Part shown: positions 23,398 to 63,023 of the stretch, piece by piece | Layout: every line of letters starts with the position of its first letter | Position numbering within the stretch: position 1 is the first letter of the stretch | NCBI RefSeq assembly: GCF_023078455.1 | Contig: NZ_CP095740.1 | Span: 2,344,001 to 2,408,000 of the forward strand | Direction: 5' to 3' | Origin: Luteibacter aegosomatis | GTDB taxonomy: Bacteria > Pseudomonadota > Gammaproteobacteria > Xanthomonadales > Rhodanobacteraceae | Length of the DNA: 64,000 nt | Position numbers and translations under genes: made by a program | Notes under the pieces: generated by a model | The model's input: only the letters and a program-made list of their open reading frames with translations | What the model was told of the DNA's origin: nothing | The model's database searches: none

Positions 23398-23562
23398 GCC
23401 CTCCGTCAGCAGGGACCGTGCCAGCCTGAAGCCCGCCTGGCAGCTCACGATGCGGTCACGGAACGCAATATTTGCATGCAGGGGGTGCAGGATCGCGACA
23501 TAACTTCGACATTTGTCCGCGCGCGTTGTTCTAAGCTGTGGCATTGAAGCCAAGGCATGCCT

Positions 23563-52578: not shown

Positions 52579-53136
52579 TTACGACTGACGGATTGCCGGA
52601 GGCGATATCGCCATCTGGGAGAGCAACGGCAAGGCCAGGCCCCATGTGACGCCCAGCCAAAGCACGGCCGGCACGGGAGACGCGGGCAAGATCACCGCTT
52701 GCCAGCCATGCGCGGCGGCCAGATAGGCCATCGGTGCGCCAATCGCTCCCAGCAGCGCCGCGACGAAAGGTCGGCCGCGCACGAAGGCCATCGACCGGCC
52801 GAGGGTCGTGGCGAAACTGAGCCAGAGCATGAGGATCCACGCCGGCGCGCCGCCCGGCGGTAACGCGGGGTAGGGTGACGCGTAGTGCCACCAGCCGAGC
52901 ATCGATGGCACGCCGTCGACCGCCATGCCTACGAGCAGCGCCATGCCCAACAGCCCGCATTCGCGGACGATGTGGCGGGAAAAGGCCAGTTGAGACATGA
53001 CGAACAGCGCTCCGGCGACCAGGCCCCAGGCGGGGCGTCCATGGCCGGCCCCGATGACCACGGTGAACCAGACGGCCTGATAGCCGATGAGGTTGAACCA
53101 GGTCCCGGCGCGGCGGCGGATGACTGTCGGATCCAT
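52579..53136 (-). CDS. DUF2878 membrane protein
   Basis: 185 aa with six hydrophobic helices (WFNLIGYQAVWFTVVIGAG; AWGLVAGALFVMSQLAF; LLGMALLVGMAVDGV; APAWILMLWLSFATTLG; FVAALLGAIGAPMAYLAAA; VPAVLWLGVTWGLALPLL). The W-F-N-L-I-G-Y-Q-A-V-W start and later G-x-P-M-A-Y are DUF2878 signatures. The ATG at 53136 overlaps the upstream gene stop (TGATG), more likely than a TTG four codons earlier. Function of the family is unknown, often beside lipid-modification genes. Confidence 0.82.
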   Translation of the reverse strand: MDPTVIRRRAGTWFNLIGYQAVWFTVVIGAGHGRPAWGLVAGALFVMSQLAFSRHIVRECGLLGMALLVGMAVDGVPSMLGWWHYASPYPALPPGGAPAWILMLWLSFATTLGRSMAFVRGRPFVAALLGAIGAPMAYLAAAHGWQAVILPASPVPAVLWLGVTWGLALPLLSQMAISPPAIRQS

Positions 53137-53933
53137 CAACGCGAGCAACTCGTCACGAGGGGCTGGACCCGAAGCGAGGCGATCTCATCGGGCGAGACGG
53201 GCGGCCGGTCGTCGGACGATGGGAAGACGATGCGGACCTTCCGGTTCTTTCCGTCGTCCGACTTGATGTTGCTTGGGCCTTCGAAACCGATCAGTCGATG
53301 ATCGGCTTCGGTGTAGGCAAGTGACACCGTCGGGGCGAACGCTCCCAGCCAGCCGTCAAGGGTCATGCGGAACTGCCGCACCGATGGCGACCCGGTCGAC
53401 GTAGCATCCGGCCGGATGACGAGCCGCAGGTCGTCGAGTCGGCTCGGCACCACGAAACGTACGGTCATGCCTTTCGGATTCGATACGCCCGACCAATGCG
53501 CCTTGACGAAGTCGTCGAACCCCGCATCGACGACCGTATCGGCGTGGAGCGCCACGCTGCCCGTGCGCGGTGACTTGTCGGCGTCATGAGACACGGTCGC
53601 GATGATCCGTTCGCCCTCGACCTTCACGCTTTCCCGGTGCCCGCTTCGCGCATCCTCGTATTCGAAATCCGGTACCCAGGCCGTCCCGGTGTAGCGGACC
53701 AGCTTGCGCGCGAACGGCCGGCCGTCGGGGCAGCGATAGAGCACCAGTCGCTGGCGAGCCTTGCCATTGCCCGTCAGCCAGTGTTCTTCCCGATAGCGAA
53801 CCTGGGACGTTTCCGGGTCGTAGGCCACGCCGGTGTAATGTCCCGTCGTGGTGTCCGCTGCGTGCGCCGCGGAGCATGCCGCCATGGCAAGGACGAAGCA
53901 TGCCCAGAGAAAACCGGTGGAACGATTCGACAT
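53136..53933 (-). CDS. Periplasmic hypothetical protein
   Basis: 265 aa. Sec signal MSNRSTGFLWACFVLAMAACSAAHA; there is an LxxC-like sequence (MAAC) so it might be a lipoprotein instead. The mature part is all-beta-looking: TTTGHYTGVAYDPETSQVRYREEHWLTGNGKARQRLVLYRCPDGRPFARKLVRY, then VRFVVPSRLDDLRLVIRPDA. It is translationally coupled to DUF2878 and is the kind of exported protein that occurs with it in Xanthomonadales. No function is assigned. Confidence 0.65.
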   Translation of the reverse strand: MSNRSTGFLWACFVLAMAACSAAHAADTTTGHYTGVAYDPETSQVRYREEHWLTGNGKARQRLVLYRCPDGRPFARKLVRYTGTAWVPDFEYEDARSGHRESVKVEGERIIATVSHDADKSPRTGSVALHADTVVDAGFDDFVKAHWSGVSNPKGMTVRFVVPSRLDDLRLVIRPDATSTGSPSVRQFRMTLDGWLGAFAPTVSLAYTEADHRLIGFEGPSNIKSDDGKNRKVRIVFPSSDDRPPVSPDEIASLRVQPLVTSCSR

Positions 53934-53993: not shown

Positions 53994-55271
53994 TTATCCG
54001 GCTCTTACGGATTTTTCCGTCGTTTGGATGCGTGGCCCGGTCGCCGATGTGTCGGTGCCGTGGGCGCCCAGGAGCCGCCGATAGCTCCACCATAGTCCCA
54101 GGGAGCCGACCGATATGGCGCCCAGGAGGAGGAATGCACCACGAAACCCGACGGACTGCGCCACCCAGCCGCCGAGCGCGGGGCTGAGCGCGGCGCCGAT
54201 ACCCTGCATGGTCATGACGGCGCCCTGGGCGACGTTGACGCGGCCCGTTCCCTGCATGAGCCGCGCCACCATGGCGGGGACGGCCACGCTCTGCAATCCG
54301 GCGCCGATGCCGTCCAGTGCCTGGACGGGGTAGACACCCCAGCGACCGACGAAAAACGCGGCCAGCAGTCCGCGGATCGGCAACGCGAGAAAGGTGACGA
54401 GAATGACGGTCCAGTAGCCATGCGTTCGGATGAGTCGCATCGCGAGGAGGGATGCGCCGACCATCACGACTTGCGCCACGACGATGGTCAGGGCCGTGAA
54501 CGCACTGGGATCGCCTTGTCGCGTAGCGACCACCGCCATGCCATACAAGGGCAGCATGGCCGCGTTGCCCAGGTGAAACAGGGCCAGCGCCGCCGACAGC
54601 ACGAGTAACGGTCGACAGGTCACGAGGATGGAAAACCCCGACGGCGCAGCGGACCCATCGTCCGCCTCGTGACCTTCCAGCCCACGAGCGGCTCGGTGGT
54701 CGATGGCCCGTTCCGGGATGAGCAGCGTGGCGATGATGGCGAACATCCCGAACGTCGCGGCCACCAGGAAGATGCCGCCGAAGCCGAAACGCCAGCCGAT
54801 GTATCCCGAAAGCCCCGCACCGACGACGTTCCCCGCGTGGTTGGCCACCTGGTTGCGTCCGAACTGGCGGTCGAAGCCCTTGGATCGCACCATGCCCAGG
54901 GTCATGCCGGCGATCGCGGGACCGAGGAGCGCACCCGCGATGGCGGTGGCCACCTGCGACAGCACCACCATGCCAAAGGAATGCGCGTACCAGACGATGC
55001 ACGACGCCAGTACCGTGCATGCGCACGAGATCACCACGGCCAGCCGCTTGTGGCGCGTGGCGTCGACGACGGCACCGGCCGGCGCGGTCACCAGCCATCC
55101 CGCGACACCGCCGATCGTCATCACCGTGCCGATCGCGCCGGTCCGCCAGCCGATGGATTGCAGGAACACGCCGAGGAACGGGCCGATGCCCGCCTGGACG
55201 TCCGCGACGAAAAAGTTCAGCGCCTCCAGCGGACGCTGCCCGCCGACGACCCGTTTTCCCGTGGCGCTCAC
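53994..55271 (-). CDS. MFS transporter
   Basis: 425-aa major facilitator with twelve hydrophobic helices. The GTG at 55271 overlaps the metallophosphoesterase stop (GTGA). After a short cytoplasmic start (MSATGKRVVGGQRPLEALNFFVADVQAGIGPFLGVFL), helix 2-3 loop G-A-V-V-D-A-T-R-H-K-R is the classical MFS motif. A further GRNQVANHAGNVVGAG follows. It resembles small-molecule efflux or uptake permeases; the substrate is not deducible. Last gene of the probable sigma-54 operon. Confidence 0.85.
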   Translation of the reverse strand: MSATGKRVVGGQRPLEALNFFVADVQAGIGPFLGVFLQSIGWRTGAIGTVMTIGGVAGWLVTAPAGAVVDATRHKRLAVVISCACTVLASCIVWYAHSFGMVVLSQVATAIAGALLGPAIAGMTLGMVRSKGFDRQFGRNQVANHAGNVVGAGLSGYIGWRFGFGGIFLVAATFGMFAIIATLLIPERAIDHRAARGLEGHEADDGSAAPSGFSILVTCRPLLVLSAALALFHLGNAAMLPLYGMAVVATRQGDPSAFTALTIVVAQVVMVGASLLAMRLIRTHGYWTVILVTFLALPIRGLLAAFFVGRWGVYPVQALDGIGAGLQSVAVPAMVARLMQGTGRVNVAQGAVMTMQGIGAALSPALGGWVAQSVGFRGAFLLLGAISVGSLGLWWSYRRLLGAHGTDTSATGPRIQTTEKSVRAG

Positions 55272-56400: not shown

Positions 56401-56970
56401 TCAGTGGCCGGGCTTCTTCGGCATCGGGCCGACCGCGTCGGCTCGGGGGCCGACGGCATCGGCCGCCACGACGGCGCCATGGGGCGTGTCGAGCCAGCGA
56501 CCTTCGACGGCGACGTGCTTGCCGACGGTCAGCAGGCGATCCAGCGCAAGCGCCGCGTGGGGCGGTATCCGGACCACGACGCCGTCCTCGAGCAGCACGC
56601 CATGCACCGAACCCTTGGGACCGTGCAGGCGCCGTTCGATCCGGCCTTCGTAGGCCCAGCGTTCGTCATCCTTCGGTGGGTTATCGCGATGCGATCCCTC
56701 GCGAGGGCCTTCGTCGAGGATGCGCTTGCCTTTCGGCGGGTCGATGGCCACGGCGACGATGACGTTCGCGCCGCGCACCGCGAGCCCACGTACCGCGAGC
56801 CTGGCACCGGGCTTGATCGCGCGTGCGAGAGCGGCCGAGAGATGTGGCGGCGTGTGGATTTCCGTGCCGTCGGTCAGCAGCATGCCGTCGATGGCGCCGT
56901 GGCTGTTGGGCACGAAACGGTCGAACGTGCCGTGTGTGGCGGGGAGATGATCGGGGTCGATCCAATGCAT
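56401..56970 (-). CDS. Two-module hypothetical protein (paralog 2)
   Basis: 189 aa from ATG 56970 (MHWIDPDHLP...); a GTG at 57042 overlaps the upstream stop by four bases (GTGA) and would add 24 residues, so coupled initiation there is also possible. No signal peptide. Two copies of one module: (1) about 12-80, H-G-T-F-D-R-F-V-P-N-S-H-G-A-I-D-G-M-L-L-T-D-G-T...PPHLSAAL; (2) about 108-175, E-G-R-I-E-R-R-L-H-G-P-K-G-S-V-H-G-V-L-L-E-D-G-V...IPPHAALAL. Each ends in a G-x-x-V-x-V-x-G strand. Possibly OB-like small barrels. Function unknown. Confidence 0.7.
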   Translation of the reverse strand: MHWIDPDHLPATHGTFDRFVPNSHGAIDGMLLTDGTEIHTPPHLSAALARAIKPGARLAVRGLAVRGANVIVAVAIDPPKGKRILDEGPREGSHRDNPPKDDERWAYEGRIERRLHGPKGSVHGVLLEDGVVVRIPPHAALALDRLLTVGKHVAVEGRWLDTPHGAVVAADAVGPRADAVGPMPKKPGH

Positions 56971-57770: not shown

Positions 57771-57811
57771 CGGAGACTCCTTGGCTGCGGTGAACCCCGC
57801 ATGGTTCCCGT

Positions 57812-57827
57812 TGCATCCTCCGTGCCA
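57812..57827 (-). promoter_or_regulatory. Sigma-54 promoter
   Basis: On the minus strand, C-TGGCACG-GAGG-ATGCA matches YTGGCACGrNNNTTGCW with one mismatch and exact GG/GC spacing (-24 at 57825-57826, -12 at 57813-57814). The start should be near 57801, leaving a 30-base leader before the module-protein ATG. It is downstream of a sigma-54-type regulator gene on the same strand. Strongest promoter call in the window. Confidence 0.8.
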
Positions 57828-57877
57828 GCGCTCGATGCCCGTGGTTTCGCCATTCGGCGAGCCGTCGCGCCCCCGGG

Positions 57878-57894
57878 TGTCCCTTTCGGGGACA
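57878..57894. promoter_or_regulatory. Upstream activator site 1
   Basis: TGTCCCTTTCGGGGACA, a 17-bp near-palindrome centred about 85 bases upstream of the predicted sigma-54 start. Flanking bases extend the symmetry to GGTGTCCC/GGGACACC. Confidence 0.7.
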
Positions 57895-57899
57895 CCTCA

Positions 57900-57916
57900 T
57901 GTCGCCGAAAGGGACA
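57900..57916. promoter_or_regulatory. Upstream activator site 2
   Basis: TGTCGCCGAAAGGGACA; its complement TGTCCCTTTCGGCGACA equals site 1 in 16 of 17 positions. Its centre is 22 bases from that of site 1, about two helical turns, and about 107 bases upstream of the predicted start. It abuts the stop codon of the response-regulator gene. Confidence 0.7.
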
Positions 57917-59242
57917 TCACTCCAGGCCGTAGTCGACCAACTTGCGATAGAGCAGTTGCCGTCGAATCCCAAGGCGGCGCGCCGCTTCGGCACGATTGCC
58001 GTCGGCGTTCGCGAGCGCTTGCGCGATCATGCGGCGCTCCAACTCGGCTATCGCGTCGGGCAAGGAAAGATCCTCCGATGCCGGAGTCGCGGAGGGGGCA
58101 GGGGGTAGCATGCCCTCGATATCGGAAACGTCGACCACGGGCCCGGGAACCAGTACCCGGCAACGCTCCATCAGGTTGCGCAACTCGCGCACGTTGCCCG
58201 GCCAGGGATGCCGTTCCAGGCGCGCGAGGGCCGCGTCGGACAAGACCTTGCGCCGGGAGGGGGCGGCATCGAGGACATGGCGTGCGATGACGGCGATGTC
58301 CTCGGTGCGCTCGCGCAAGGGAAGCAGTTCGATGGGCAGCACGTTGAGCCGATAGAACAGGTCCATGCGGAATTCGCCGGCCGCGATGCGCTCTTCGATG
58401 AAGCGGTGCGTGGCCGCGATGATGCGCACGTCGACGCGCACGGGACGACTGCTGCCGACCGGCGTGACTTCGCCTTCCTGGAGCACGCGCAGCAGCTTCG
58501 CCTGCATGGCCAGCGGCATGTCGCCGATCTCGTCGAGCAGCAGCGTGCCGCGGTCGGCCTCGCGAAAGTAACCCTTGCGGTCCGCGATGGCGCCCGAGAA
58601 TGCGCCTTTCTGATGACCGAACAGCTCGCTTTCGAGCAGTTCCGGTGGAATCGCCGCGCAGTTGACCGCGACGAACGCTTGCCCCGCGCGCTCTCCCGCC
58701 CGATGCAGCGCCCGCGCCACCATTTCCTTGCCCGTGCCGGTCTCACCGGTGATCAGTACCGGTACGTCGGTGGCGGCGGCCAGCCCGATGCGCTTGTGGA
58801 CCTGCCGCATCGCCGGGCTCGCTCCCAGCATTTCTCCATCCTCGGCGGCGGATGTCGCTTCCGTCGGTGGCGAACCGACGGAAGCGAGGGCGCGCTCCAC
58901 CGCGCTGGCCACTTCCTGGCGGCCGATGGGCTTGATCAGGTGATCGAACGCACCCAGCCGCATCGCATCGATGGTGTTCTGCGCCGAGGCGAATGCGGTG
59001 AGCATGATGATCGGAACGGGCGATGCGGCGGCGTCGGTGCGACGCGCGCGCAGCAACGACAGGCCATCCATGCCCGGCATGCGGTAGTCCAGGAAGGCGA
59101 GGTCGATGCCATCGGCGTCCAGCCGGCGCAGGCCCTCGGTGGCATCGGCCGCCATCGTGACCTGATGGCCGAGCGACTCCAGCGTCGCGGCCAGTGTCGC
59201 GCGGAAGTCGTGATCGTCGTCGATGATCAGGATGCGTGCCAT
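57917..59242 (-). CDS. Sigma-54-dependent response regulator
   Basis: 441 aa from ATG 59242. Receiver 1-120: acidic DDD (8-10), phospho-acceptor Asp52 (LAFLDYRMPG), Lys104. AAA+ domain: Walker A GETGTGKE (166-173), contact loop GAFSGA (213-218; GAFTGA in the family, Thr to Ser), Walker B TLLLDEIGD. C-terminal Fis helix-turn-helix: ERRMIAQALANADGNRAEAARRLGIRRQLLYRKL. Overlaps its kinase gene by 16 bases. The matching palindromes and sigma-54 promoter immediately downstream are its most likely target. Confidence 0.92.
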   Translation of the reverse strand: MARILIIDDDHDFRATLAATLESLGHQVTMAADATEGLRRLDADGIDLAFLDYRMPGMDGLSLLRARRTDAAASPVPIIMLTAFASAQNTIDAMRLGAFDHLIKPIGRQEVASAVERALASVGSPPTEATSAAEDGEMLGASPAMRQVHKRIGLAAATDVPVLITGETGTGKEMVARALHRAGERAGQAFVAVNCAAIPPELLESELFGHQKGAFSGAIADRKGYFREADRGTLLLDEIGDMPLAMQAKLLRVLQEGEVTPVGSSRPVRVDVRIIAATHRFIEERIAAGEFRMDLFYRLNVLPIELLPLRERTEDIAVIARHVLDAAPSRRKVLSDAALARLERHPWPGNVRELRNLMERCRVLVPGPVVDVSDIEGMLPPAPSATPASEDLSLPDAIAELERRMIAQALANADGNRAEAARRLGIRRQLLYRKLVDYGLE

Positions 59243-60813: not shown

Positions 60814-61698
60814 ATGTCCACGTTGACCGTCGCGACCATGGATGGCGCCGCCTTGCCCAGCCAGGTGGGGATGCCCGCCGTGGGCGATGTTCTCGTCGTC
60901 GCCGGCCCCGGATGCGTCGCGGCAACCCGCGTGGGCAGCTGGCTCGCCGCAAGGGGGCGCGGCGTGGTGACCGGTTGCGCCATGCCTGAGGCGTTCCATC
61001 ACGGCAGGATCCGTGGCCGAGAGCCCACCGTGATGGCGCTCCTGCAGAGCACGCCCGAACGGCAACGCGGCGACGACCTCGGCAGGGACCACGCAGGCGA
61101 ACGTTTCGTCCACGAGGCGCTGATCGCCGGTGCGCACGATCCCCAGTGGGCCGTGCTGGGGGACGATTATCTCCGCGAGCTGAAGGCGCTGTGCAGTTGG
61201 CACGACCTCATCGTCGTCCAGCGCACGTCGCCGGCGCGGGAGAAGCCGCTGGGTGGCCTGGACGAACTGGCGCTGGCCTGCGGCCTTCCGATGCTCATCC
61301 TGCCGACGCCGTGCGCACCGGGAGCGACGTACGACCGCATCGTGATCGCCTACGACGGCAGCGGCCCGGCCACGCGTGCGCTGCGATCGGCGATGCCTCT
61401 CATCGTTGCCGCACGCCATGTCCACCTCCTCGACGGAAGCGGCGGCCGGACGCACCTGCCGCGGTTCGATCCGATGCGTTTCCTCGCGCGTTTCGGCGTT
61501 ACGGCCCACCGCAAGCGCGTGGCGGAGCGTTCCGTCGACGGCTCCCAATTGCTGGCGCGGGTCGCGAAGCTCGAGCCCGACCTGCTGGTGATGGGCGCAT
61601 ACGGACACTCGCCCCTGCGCGAGCGCGTGCTGGGCGGAACGACGCACCATATCCTGGGCTCGGCGACACTTTCCGTGTCCGTACTCGTCCAGCACTGA
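60814..61698 (+). CDS. Universal stress protein (UspA-like, tandem domain)
   Basis: 294 aa. The C-terminal half (about 172-294) is a complete UspA domain: Y-D-R-I-V-I-A-Y-D-G-S at its start and the ATP motif G-x-x-G-H-x9-G-G-T (residues 261-276). The N-terminal half looks like a degenerate second Usp domain without the nucleotide motif, so the protein is a tandem Usp of the E type. Preceded by an FNR-like promoter and followed by a hairpin. Cytoplasmic survival protein for stress or oxygen limitation. Confidence 0.88.
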   Translation: MSTLTVATMDGAALPSQVGMPAVGDVLVVAGPGCVAATRVGSWLAARGRGVVTGCAMPEAFHHGRIRGREPTVMALLQSTPERQRGDDLGRDHAGERFVHEALIAGAHDPQWAVLGDDYLRELKALCSWHDLIVVQRTSPAREKPLGGLDELALACGLPMLILPTPCAPGATYDRIVIAYDGSGPATRALRSAMPLIVAARHVHLLDGSGGRTHLPRFDPMRFLARFGVTAHRKRVAERSVDGSQLLARVAKLEPDLLVMGAYGHSPLRERVLGGTTHHILGSATLSVSVLVQH

Positions 61699-61709
61699 TC
61701 CGATGGCGC

Positions 61710-61731
61710 GCTCCCGGCCTGGACCGGGAGC
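61710..61731. terminator. Bidirectional terminator between usp and the BON gene
   Basis: GCTCCCGG (61710-61717) pairs with CCGGGAGC (61724-61731) around CCTGGA, 11 bases after the usp stop and 11 before the BON stop on the other strand. Confidence 0.55.
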
Positions 61732-61742
61732 GACACCCGTCG

Positions 61743-62405
61743 TCAACCGGCATGCCACTGGATGTGCAGGTTGTCGTGCACGGCGCGCACGCCCGGCACC
61801 GACCACGCGGCACGTTCGATGGCGCGACGCTCCTCGTAGTCGCCCACGTCGCCTTCGAGCGTGACATCGCCAGGCGACTTGACGTCGATGCGTATCCGCG
61901 ACGCTTCGCCGTCGACATGGCGACGAAGCGCGTCCTTGATCTTCTCGCGCACGTTTTCCGATTTCAGCGCCTGTTTGATCTCCACGTTGTTGAAGACGCC
62001 GTGGATACCGGTCAGCCGGCGGACCGCGGCTTCGGCGGCGAAGCGCTGGAAGTGCCAGTCCACGGTGCCGCTCAGCGTGATCCAGCCGTTGGACACCTTG
62101 ACGTGGATGGTATCGGCGGGCACGCCGACGTTCCAGGCGATGATCCTTGCGGCACGCTTGGCGATCTCGTCGTCGTTGACCTTGGCATGCTCGGGAAGCC
62201 GGACCTCCAGCTCCTGCGCGAGCGCCTTGACGCCCTTGATGCGCCACACCGCTTTTTCCGCATCGATCTTCTGCGAGTAGCTGGGCACGTGGCCGTTGAG
62301 GGTCACCACGCCGTCCGCGACCGATACTCCGATACCCCTGGCATCGATGCCGGGCTCGAAGTCGAGCTCCTCGACGATGTCCTGACGCAGCTGCATGTCG
62401 TTCAT
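61743..62405 (-). CDS. Triple-BON domain protein
   Basis: 220 aa with three BON domains (about 4-70, 77-144, 151-216), each with the alternating G-V-(V/I)-T-L-x-G-x-V ... A-x-x-x-x-G-V motif: VADGVVTLNGHV...IKGVKAL, VSNGWITLSGTV...LTGIHGV, SPGDVTLEGDV...VPGVRAV. No signal peptide, so unlike OsmY it should be cytoplasmic or membrane-surface associated. BON domains bind phospholipid. Divergent from hsp20, sharing an FNR box. Confidence 0.9.
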   Translation of the reverse strand: MNDMQLRQDIVEELDFEPGIDARGIGVSVADGVVTLNGHVPSYSQKIDAEKAVWRIKGVKALAQELEVRLPEHAKVNDDEIAKRAARIIAWNVGVPADTIHVKVSNGWITLSGTVDWHFQRFAAEAAVRRLTGIHGVFNNVEIKQALKSENVREKIKDALRRHVDGEASRIRIDVKSPGDVTLEGDVGDYEERRAIERAAWSVPGVRAVHDNLHIQWHAG

Positions 62406-62432
62406 GGTGCTTCTCCGTGGGAAGGAAGCTCC

Positions 62433-62501
62433 TTTCTAGCGAGGCCCGGATCGCCCGGCATTGATCGCGATCAATCGATCGCGCCCCCGATGGCCTAGGT
62501 T
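62433..62501. promoter_or_regulatory. FNR/ANR box shared by the BON and Hsp20 genes
   Basis: TTGATCGCGATCAA at 62461-62474 is a perfect FNR/ANR site. Outward on the minus strand TAGAAA (62438-62433) begins 22 bases from it; on the plus strand TAGGTT (62496-62501) begins 21 bases from it. Both positions fit class II activation from a single dimer site serving two divergent promoters. Confidence 0.75.
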
Positions 62502-62576
62502 TCATGGGCGTATCCCGGCGGCGGGCACGTGCCGTTGCGGATACCCATCCGAAGACCGAAAGAGGAGTCACCGACC

Positions 62577-63023
62577 ATGGCGAGCATGATTCGCTGGAAT
62601 CCACTCAAGACGCTGTCCGCCATCGACCGCTTTCCCGATGTCGACGATCTCTTCCGCAGCACCTTTTCCCGGAGTTCGTGGGGCGGTGCGGATATCGCGC
62701 CCGACATGCGCATCGACGTGACGGAAAGCGACGGATCGTACAAGGTCAAGGCCGACCTGCCTGGCGTGGACAAGAAAGACATCGAGGTATCGATCAACGA
62801 CAACCAGGTCGTCATCAGCGCCGAAGTGCGGCGTGAAACCCACCAGAAGGAAGGAGAGCGCGACATCGTGACGGAGCGTTCCTTCGGCCAGGCGTACCGC
62901 GCGTTCACCTTGCCCGCCGCCGTCTCATCCGACAAGGCCGACGCGCGTTACGAGGACGGCGTGCTGACCCTTACCCTGCCGAAGAAGGAAAACGGAAGCG
63001 CGCGCAAGCTCAAGGTGAGCTGA
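62577..63023 (+). CDS. Hsp20/alpha-crystallin small heat-shock protein
   Basis: 148 aa from ATG 62577 (AGAGGAG nine bases upstream; 16 codons before it are discarded). N-terminal arm MASMIRWNPLKTLSAIDRFPDVDDLFRSTF, alpha-crystallin core about 40-135 (MRIDVTESDGSYKVKADLPGVDKKDIEVSINDNQVVISAE), and the G-V-L-T-L-T-L-P-K (I/V-x-I/V-like) C-terminal segment. ATP-independent chaperone. Transcribed from the FNR-type promoter shared with the BON gene; a hairpin follows. Confidence 0.93.
   Translation: MASMIRWNPLKTLSAIDRFPDVDDLFRSTFSRSSWGGADIAPDMRIDVTESDGSYKVKADLPGVDKKDIEVSINDNQVVISAEVRRETHQKEGERDIVTERSFGQAYRAFTLPAAVSSDKADARYEDGVLTLTLPKKENGSARKLKVS

Follow-up and report, generated by a model that had tools for sequence, protein, structure and literature searches.

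A pair of 17-bp palindromes, located between a two-component gene pair and the operon next to it, very probably represents the upstream activating sites through which the adjacent NtrC-type regulator would switch on this operon from a sigma-54 promoter. By sequence comparison, we established the sites themselves, the constancy of their geometry, their association with the target promoter instead of the regulator stop codon, and their co-occurrence with one regulator clade. In the window, which denotes the whole analyzed stretch of 64,000 nucleotides, the regulator stop codon (57917–57919, minus strand) and the start of the module protein 1 gene (57770, minus strand) enclose a gap at 57771–57916, and its length of 146 bp, given in the earlier sequence-only reading, could be read directly. 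The gap contains two palindromes of the form TGTC-N9-GACA with their centers at 57886 and 57908, separated by 22 bp (Table 1). The sequence-only reading had described both copies and their spacing correctly, and what it lacked was their opposite orientation, with the second copy being inverted. The positions it had assigned to the centers, about 85 and 107 bases upstream of the start, were borne out with a transcription start at about 57801, which we inferred as lying some 12 nt past the −12 GC of the sigma-54-like site. A search for the 17-bp motif with up to three mismatches gave four matches in the window compared with 0.31 expected; sites A and B were the only two without a mismatch.

Table 1. 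Positions of the palindromes, the promoter, and the genes of the circuit in the window
Feature	Position	Strand	Remarks
Distal site (site A)	57900..57916	-	TGTCCCTTTCGGCGACA; abuts the regulator stop codon; center ~-107; kept in relatives
Proximal site (site B)	57878..57894	reads TGTCCCTTTCGGGGACA on +, TGTCCCCGAAAGGGACA on -	center ~-85; kept in relatives
Sigma-54 promoter, predicted	57812..57827	-	TGGCACGGAGGATGCA; 89 bp past the start of site A; position and sequence conserved
Sensor histidine kinase, 475 aa	59227..60654	-	overlaps the regulator gene by 22 bp; hydrophobic segments 3-33 and 176-202
NtrC-type response regulator, 443 aa	57917..59248	-	receiver, sigma-54 AAA+, AAA lid, Fis helix-turn-helix; GAFSGA loop
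Module protein 1, 243 aa	57039..57770	-	N-terminus resembles a signal peptide by eye; model with two OB-fold domains
Module protein 2, 189 aa if ATG 56970 (MHWIDPDH...)	56401..56970	-	same module repeated
Metallophosphoesterase, 367 aa	55268..56371	-	found in 6 of 80 named loci
MFS transporter, multidrug-like	53994..55265	-	start approximate

The regulator matched the Pfam families PF00072, PF00158, PF25601, and PF02954, each above its cut-off. Its sigma-54-contacting loop is a variant of GAFTGA, in which serine in place of threonine is tolerated. Among 72 regulators, including that of the window, the loop read GAFTGA in 37, GAFSGA in 29, and GSFTGA in three, and none was found in the other three. 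The kinase gene, which lies upstream, encodes HisKA and HATPase_c domains, and the two hydrophobic segments of its product flank about 140 residues. Thus, the features by which the NtrC-type class was judged, namely the domains, the loop variant, the paired dyads upstream of a −24/−12 promoter, and the partner kinase, were all found. Further upstream of the kinase gene, at 60814–63023, universal-stress-like, BON-like, and small-heat-shock-like genes were recognized by eye.

The comparison set was assembled by scanning named genomes with an alignment of the module protein, whereby 87 candidates encoded a relative and the best 80 of these 87 were taken; with the window and the loci L039 and L040, the set comprised 83 loci. 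The physical linkage of regulator, sites, promoter, and target put forward in the sequence-only reading has its counterpart in 72 of the 83, where the regulator is located upstream of the module gene. Among the 11 loci arranged otherwise, the module gene of L087, L105, L121, L154, and L158 lies no more than 250 bp from a contig end. At L125 a contig end lies within 450 bp of this gene, and the composite of pair and promoter is still present. The same layout was seen in the relatives G018, G005, G007, and G031; the twin site is complete in the first three, and in G031 one copy is perfect and the other has one mismatch. An unbiased search for the twin-site pattern in 233 genomes of the family returned seven genomes compared with none for the control, and five of the seven (G000, G018, G005, G007, and G219) carried this circuit. 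Twin TGTC-N9-GACA palindromes with another inner sequence were also observed in other genera (L078 and L083, at G058:C9:931856 and G216:C2:2783), where the circuit genes are absent from the 3-kb stretches.

In the 71 other loci with an upstream regulator, a perfect site was found within 300 bp past the regulator stop in 53, compared with 0.08 in shuffled sequences, and 64 had a site with at most one mismatch in this interval, compared with 6.2. Pairs at 21–23 bp with at most two mismatches in total occurred in 34 of the 71 and in none of 50 shuffle rounds. The reversed pattern gave no perfect site, six sites with at most one mismatch, and one pair in the same loci, and a control stretch inside the regulator gene gave one, two, and one, respectively. 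Five of the 71 loci had been viewed before this site test (L039, L040, L085, L139, and L151), the last three being taken as the records behind L084, L041, and L044. Many of the loci are close kin, in particular those of Xanthomonas and the Burkholderiaceae, so that these counts are inflated and do not represent independent events; it is the spread over genera that is the real evidence for conservation. The sequence-only reading had named a lack of conservation next to orthologs as its own test of refutation. This test was run and did not refute it: the sites, spacing, and promoter proved to be kept in several genera of both gamma- and betaproteobacteria, and their conservation is weaker in alphaproteobacteria. 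Xanthomonas and the Comamonadaceae have a degenerate proximal site. The weak alphaproteobacterial sites require three mismatches in L127 and L156 and up to four in L136, and no composite of pair and promoter was found in L166 and L167.

With at most four mismatches over the pair, 65 of the 72 loci had both pair and promoter, with the centers 20–23 bp apart (22 bp in 31 loci). In 64 loci, 89–93 bp separated the start of the distal site from the promoter; since site A was sought 81–97 bp before the promoter, this range partly builds in narrow distances, which were borne out by a free search for site A 41–300 bp upstream of sigma-54-like matches, with the best pair at 89–93 bp in 64 of 72. In the remainder, three loci tied with this distance, one each had the best pair at 83, 113, and 172 bp, one exceeded four mismatches, and one had no scorable promoter. 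A cruder measure, taking the best single site and the best sigma-54 score separately, gave the distal spacing in 42, the proximal spacing in 12, and another in 18 of the 72 loci. When the sites were allowed to overlap the end of the regulator gene, 68 loci scored, the sites of the Bradyrhizobium loci L127, L136, and L156 then being at −44 from the regulator stop; four of the 72 (L086, L116, L160, and L162) failed the pair-plus-promoter rule even so. The offset between sites and regulator stop ranges from −44 to +1322, and the distance of the sites is thus fixed to the promoter and not to the stop codon.

This geometry bears on the reading of the inverted repeat as a terminator or RNA hairpin at the 3′ end of the regulator gene instead of an operator. 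The hairpin predicted for the two window copies is indeed strong (−33.4 kcal/mol, z −3.3) and starts directly after the stop codon, with eight of the nine inner positions cross-complementary between the copies, and all nine are so in five of 68 loci. In contrast, no T run follows the window hairpin, and in 41 of the 68 loci the inner complementarity is at most four of nine (one in L151 and three in L040), while the arms of each copy persist. The spacing is tied to the promoter rather than to the stop codon, and the sites are also present before divergent operons; composites before moved or divergent targets argue against a terminator hairpin. Consequently, this reading was rejected on the geometry and the weak cross-copy pairing in other loci, and we consider it highly improbable.

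At 57812–57827, a sigma-54-like site reads toward the module-protein operon, and the single mismatch claimed for it in the sequence-only reading was confirmed, although the match taken alone is at chance level. The window contains 13 sigma-54-like sites with up to two mismatches compared with 10.9 expected, one other of which, at 23408, also has a single mismatch, and therefore 57812–57827 is not significant by itself. The −12 element of the window has A in place of the consensus T, which, like the GAFSGA loop of its regulator, counts against the proposed mechanism. Across loci, the promoter reads TGGCAC or TGGCAT plus TTGC or a variant of it, with TTGA in many Comamonadaceae. A sigma-54 score of at least 12 of 15 was reached on the coding strand in 61 and on the opposite strand in 18 of the 72 loci, and at a score of at least 11 of 15 the strand contrast was small (67 vs. 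53 of 72). The genome to which the window belongs has one sigma-54 gene.

Loci with altered gene order provided a further line of evidence (NATURAL REARRANGEMENTS): where the targets have moved, pair and promoter are found along with the target. Pair and promoter precede the target in nine loci in which the operon is divergent, interrupted, rearranged, or without a linked regulator. L134 and L149 have their own composite before a divergent MFS gene, and on a Caballeronia plasmid (L169) the composite precedes a divergent operon encoding a metallophosphoesterase, an MFS protein, an anion carrier, and an exporter. In L106, L111, L115, and L124, regulator and module gene are separated by more than 1 kb with the composite before the module gene, and a degenerate pair also persists just after the regulator in L106, L115, and L124. 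In L138, the module operon retains the composite even though the kinase and regulator genes are placed downstream of it in the opposite orientation. The exception is L144, in which the composite is present and kinase and regulator are absent from 11.4 kb. At L116, the MFS part and the module part are each preceded by perfect single sites, with no composite under the search pattern. At the loosest setting, 67 real composites were found, compared with 1, 1, 1, 1, 2, 11, and 2 for seven control patterns; the pattern giving 11 was the permuted TTGC/GCAA one, and the other six gave 1–2.

We also weighed whether a non-adjacent regulator uses the palindromes, or whether the adjacent regulator acts there as a repressor. 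L144, with its composite and no linked kinase or regulator, speaks for another regulator. Against it, the sites track one regulator clade even after changes of gene order, and no composite was found in six loci (L042, L043, L045, L129, L135, and L164) in which the upstream sequence is present and the orthologous kinase and regulator are absent from the stretch. Near one of these, L043, another regulator of the NtrC type is encoded (42% identity), and the genome of L045 is G007, which has the circuit elsewhere. Placement upstream of a sigma-54 promoter is typical of activators of this class, and the observed position fits an activator rather than a repressor. Hence, we regard both variants as unlikely and retain activation by the adjacent regulator as the preferred reading. 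As an observation apart, the Luteibacter relatives L042, L043, and L045 carry a module-protein-2 gene in a stretch that lacks both the orthologous kinase and regulator and the paired palindromes, and in L042 and L043 an MFS gene lies beside it.

Homologs of kinase, regulator, and module protein are present in all five plasmid loci, and the composite in two of them (L165 and L169). No composite was found by the pattern used in L166, L167, and L168, and in L168 two perfect single sites follow the regulator. On a Methylocystis plasmid (L165, 5625–10386), a composite stands before a module-like gene, a CHASE3 gene, the kinase gene, and the regulator gene; this composite preceding kinase and regulator suggests possible autoregulation there.

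The 77 module-linked regulators formed one clade with a support of 100 against 25 other NtrC-type regulators in a quick tree that gave long-branch warnings and from which the L151 fragment was left out as too short. Its members come from gamma-, beta-, and alphaproteobacteria, the alphaproteobacterial ones being associated with weaker sites. The regulator of Frateuria, a gammaproteobacterium, was placed inside a group of Burkholderiaceae with a support of 99, and 82 at its own fork. This nested position suggests that the circuit may have been transferred horizontally along with its sites.

The spacer between sites and promoter was searched on either strand for the IHF consensus, WATCAANNNNTTR. 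Exact matches were present in 10 of 68 loci compared with 0.07 in mononucleotide shuffles, and matches with at most one mismatch in 23 of 68 compared with about 1.6. The exact IHF-type sites belong to Xanthomonas, the Comamonadaceae, and one Bradyrhizobium locus (L089, L090, L094, L110, L111, L113, L115, L124, L127, and L155), and in Xanthomonas, the Comamonadaceae, and Bradyrhizobium the matches occupy near-fixed, lineage-specific positions. At up to one mismatch, no IHF site was found in the Luteibacter loci, including the window spacer at 57828–57877. With IHF sites in some lineages and not in Luteibacter, related circuits seem to differ in their need for DNA bending.

The exact 39-bp pair has a single occurrence in the window's own 4.76-Mb genome. 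When up to three mismatches were allowed, it was found at six places, as was the reversed control, and the single palindrome TGTCC-N7-GGACA with at most one mismatch was not over-represented in this genome (66 vs. 107 for the control). The genes flanking the best other pair, which has two mismatches (G000:C1:962743), were judged by eye to be KdsD-like and MurA-like. A genome-wide regulon in this genome was rejected, the other sites being at or below control level. Since the exact pair is unique, the circuit seems to be dedicated to one operon here, as read from the sequence. Module protein 1 was matched in eight of the 101 genomes searched, its own included, and the distribution of the operon is therefore patchy.

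The structural model of module protein 1 had a pLDDT of 86, and its domains at about residues 44–121 and 136–211 aligned to OB-fold proteins, so that, according to this model, it has a tandem OB fold; given its signal-peptide-like start, it is apparently secreted. Its closest named protein match is from Luteibacter. For module protein 2, no signal peptide was seen by eye, and its OB assignment is based on sequence similarity, with the Pfam OB match of a relative being below cut-off (E 0.0025). The MFS transporter resembles multidrug antiporters, matching NorA chains with an E of 5e-5 in a PDB search and TIGR00880 with 50.6 bits, under the cut-off of 131. The kinase gene was found in 69, the regulator gene in 70, the MFS gene in 73, and the metallophosphoesterase gene in six of the 80 named loci; thus, the four-gene target operon of the sequence-only reading holds for the window, and its metallophosphoesterase is not a general member elsewhere. 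Two more same-strand genes follow closely after the MFS gene (52579–53933, encoding 265 aa and 189 aa). For the 265-aa gene, the compared relatives contained no match, and membership of these two genes in the operon is not supported. Both module proteins and the metallophosphoesterase matched no PADLOC family at E ≤ 0.01, and with no match for these three operon proteins, a role in anti-phage defense was rejected.

A complement to the proposed mechanism is that the operon serves inducible export and protection of the envelope, whereby a secreted protein with a tandem OB fold and an exporter of the MFS type would act against a toxic compound sensed in the periplasm. We consider this a possible function, with the balance somewhat against it. 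The frequent, multidrug-antiporter-like MFS gene is in line with it, as are the two hydrophobic segments of the kinase and the additional carriers on plasmid loci, three of which encode an ArsB/CitMHS-type anion transporter beside the MFS protein and two of these three also a YdcZ-type exporter; the rarity of the metallophosphoesterase speaks against it. A wider picture, in which a horizontally moving, self-contained sigma-54 cassette of kinase, activator, two-site operator, and promoter controls an unnamed OB-fold/MFS export system, in some lineages together with an ArsB/CitMHS-type carrier, against a periplasm-sensed compound, is offered tentatively and must be considered doubtful.

The regulator scored under the curated cut-off in each of the best 25 of 125 NCBIfam matches. 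It shares its domain order and activation class with NtrC, AtoC, ZraR, and the PEP-CTERM regulator PrsR, whereas its scores fell short of the respective cut-offs: 430.5 against 558.6 bits for the NtrC equivalog TIGR01818, 409.9 against 714 for AtoC, 362.8 against 760 for ZraR, and 341.8 against 502.6 for PrsR. In the passages of PMC8745638, PMC4987338, PMC3162934, PMC4641369, and PMC5979394, the nearest published site is that of GlrR (QseF) of enterobacteria, TGTC(N)10GACA, located upstream of sigma-54 promoters (PMC4987338; PMC8745638). As described in these passages, GlrR is likewise an NtrC-type response regulator with TGTC/GACA arms upstream of a sigma-54 promoter. In contrast, the spacer here is 9 instead of 10, the target is a protein operon instead of a small RNA, and the regulator reached 366.7 bits, below the GlrR cut-off of 763. 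Module protein 1 resembles SSB and PriB in the OB fold only, with 5–20% identity among the 50 matches listed, and differs from them in being tandem, proline-rich, and apparently secreted. In the open-access literature, searched by titles and abstract openings, there was no paper on this circuit, which agrees with its description as unstudied in the sequence-only reading, and a term search in the main texts of the Desulfovibrio sigma-54 regulome and Paraburkholderia phymatum RpoN papers returned nothing on it. The circuit is ordinary in kind, being a linked two-component system with a sigma-54 operon, and, as far as searched, it is new as a particular family.

The mechanism that we infer, from phosphorylation and binding to sigma-54-dependent activation, is as follows. 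The membrane histidine kinase would sense a signal, probably a periplasmic one, and phosphorylate the regulator. Regulator dimers would then occupy the two sites, two helical turns apart, and oligomerize. ATP-driven opening of the sigma-54 RNA polymerase complex would follow, with the −12 element about 75–95 bp from the site centers, and the operon encoding module protein 1, module protein 2, the metallophosphoesterase, and the MFS transporter would be switched on.

With these results, binding site and promoter are predicted and a target is defined for an uncharacterized regulator family that occurs in many plant- and soil-associated Proteobacteria, and signal and substrate can therefore be searched for with one reporter. 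In addition, the rearranged operons constitute a natural series in which the operator–promoter geometry is kept when genes move.
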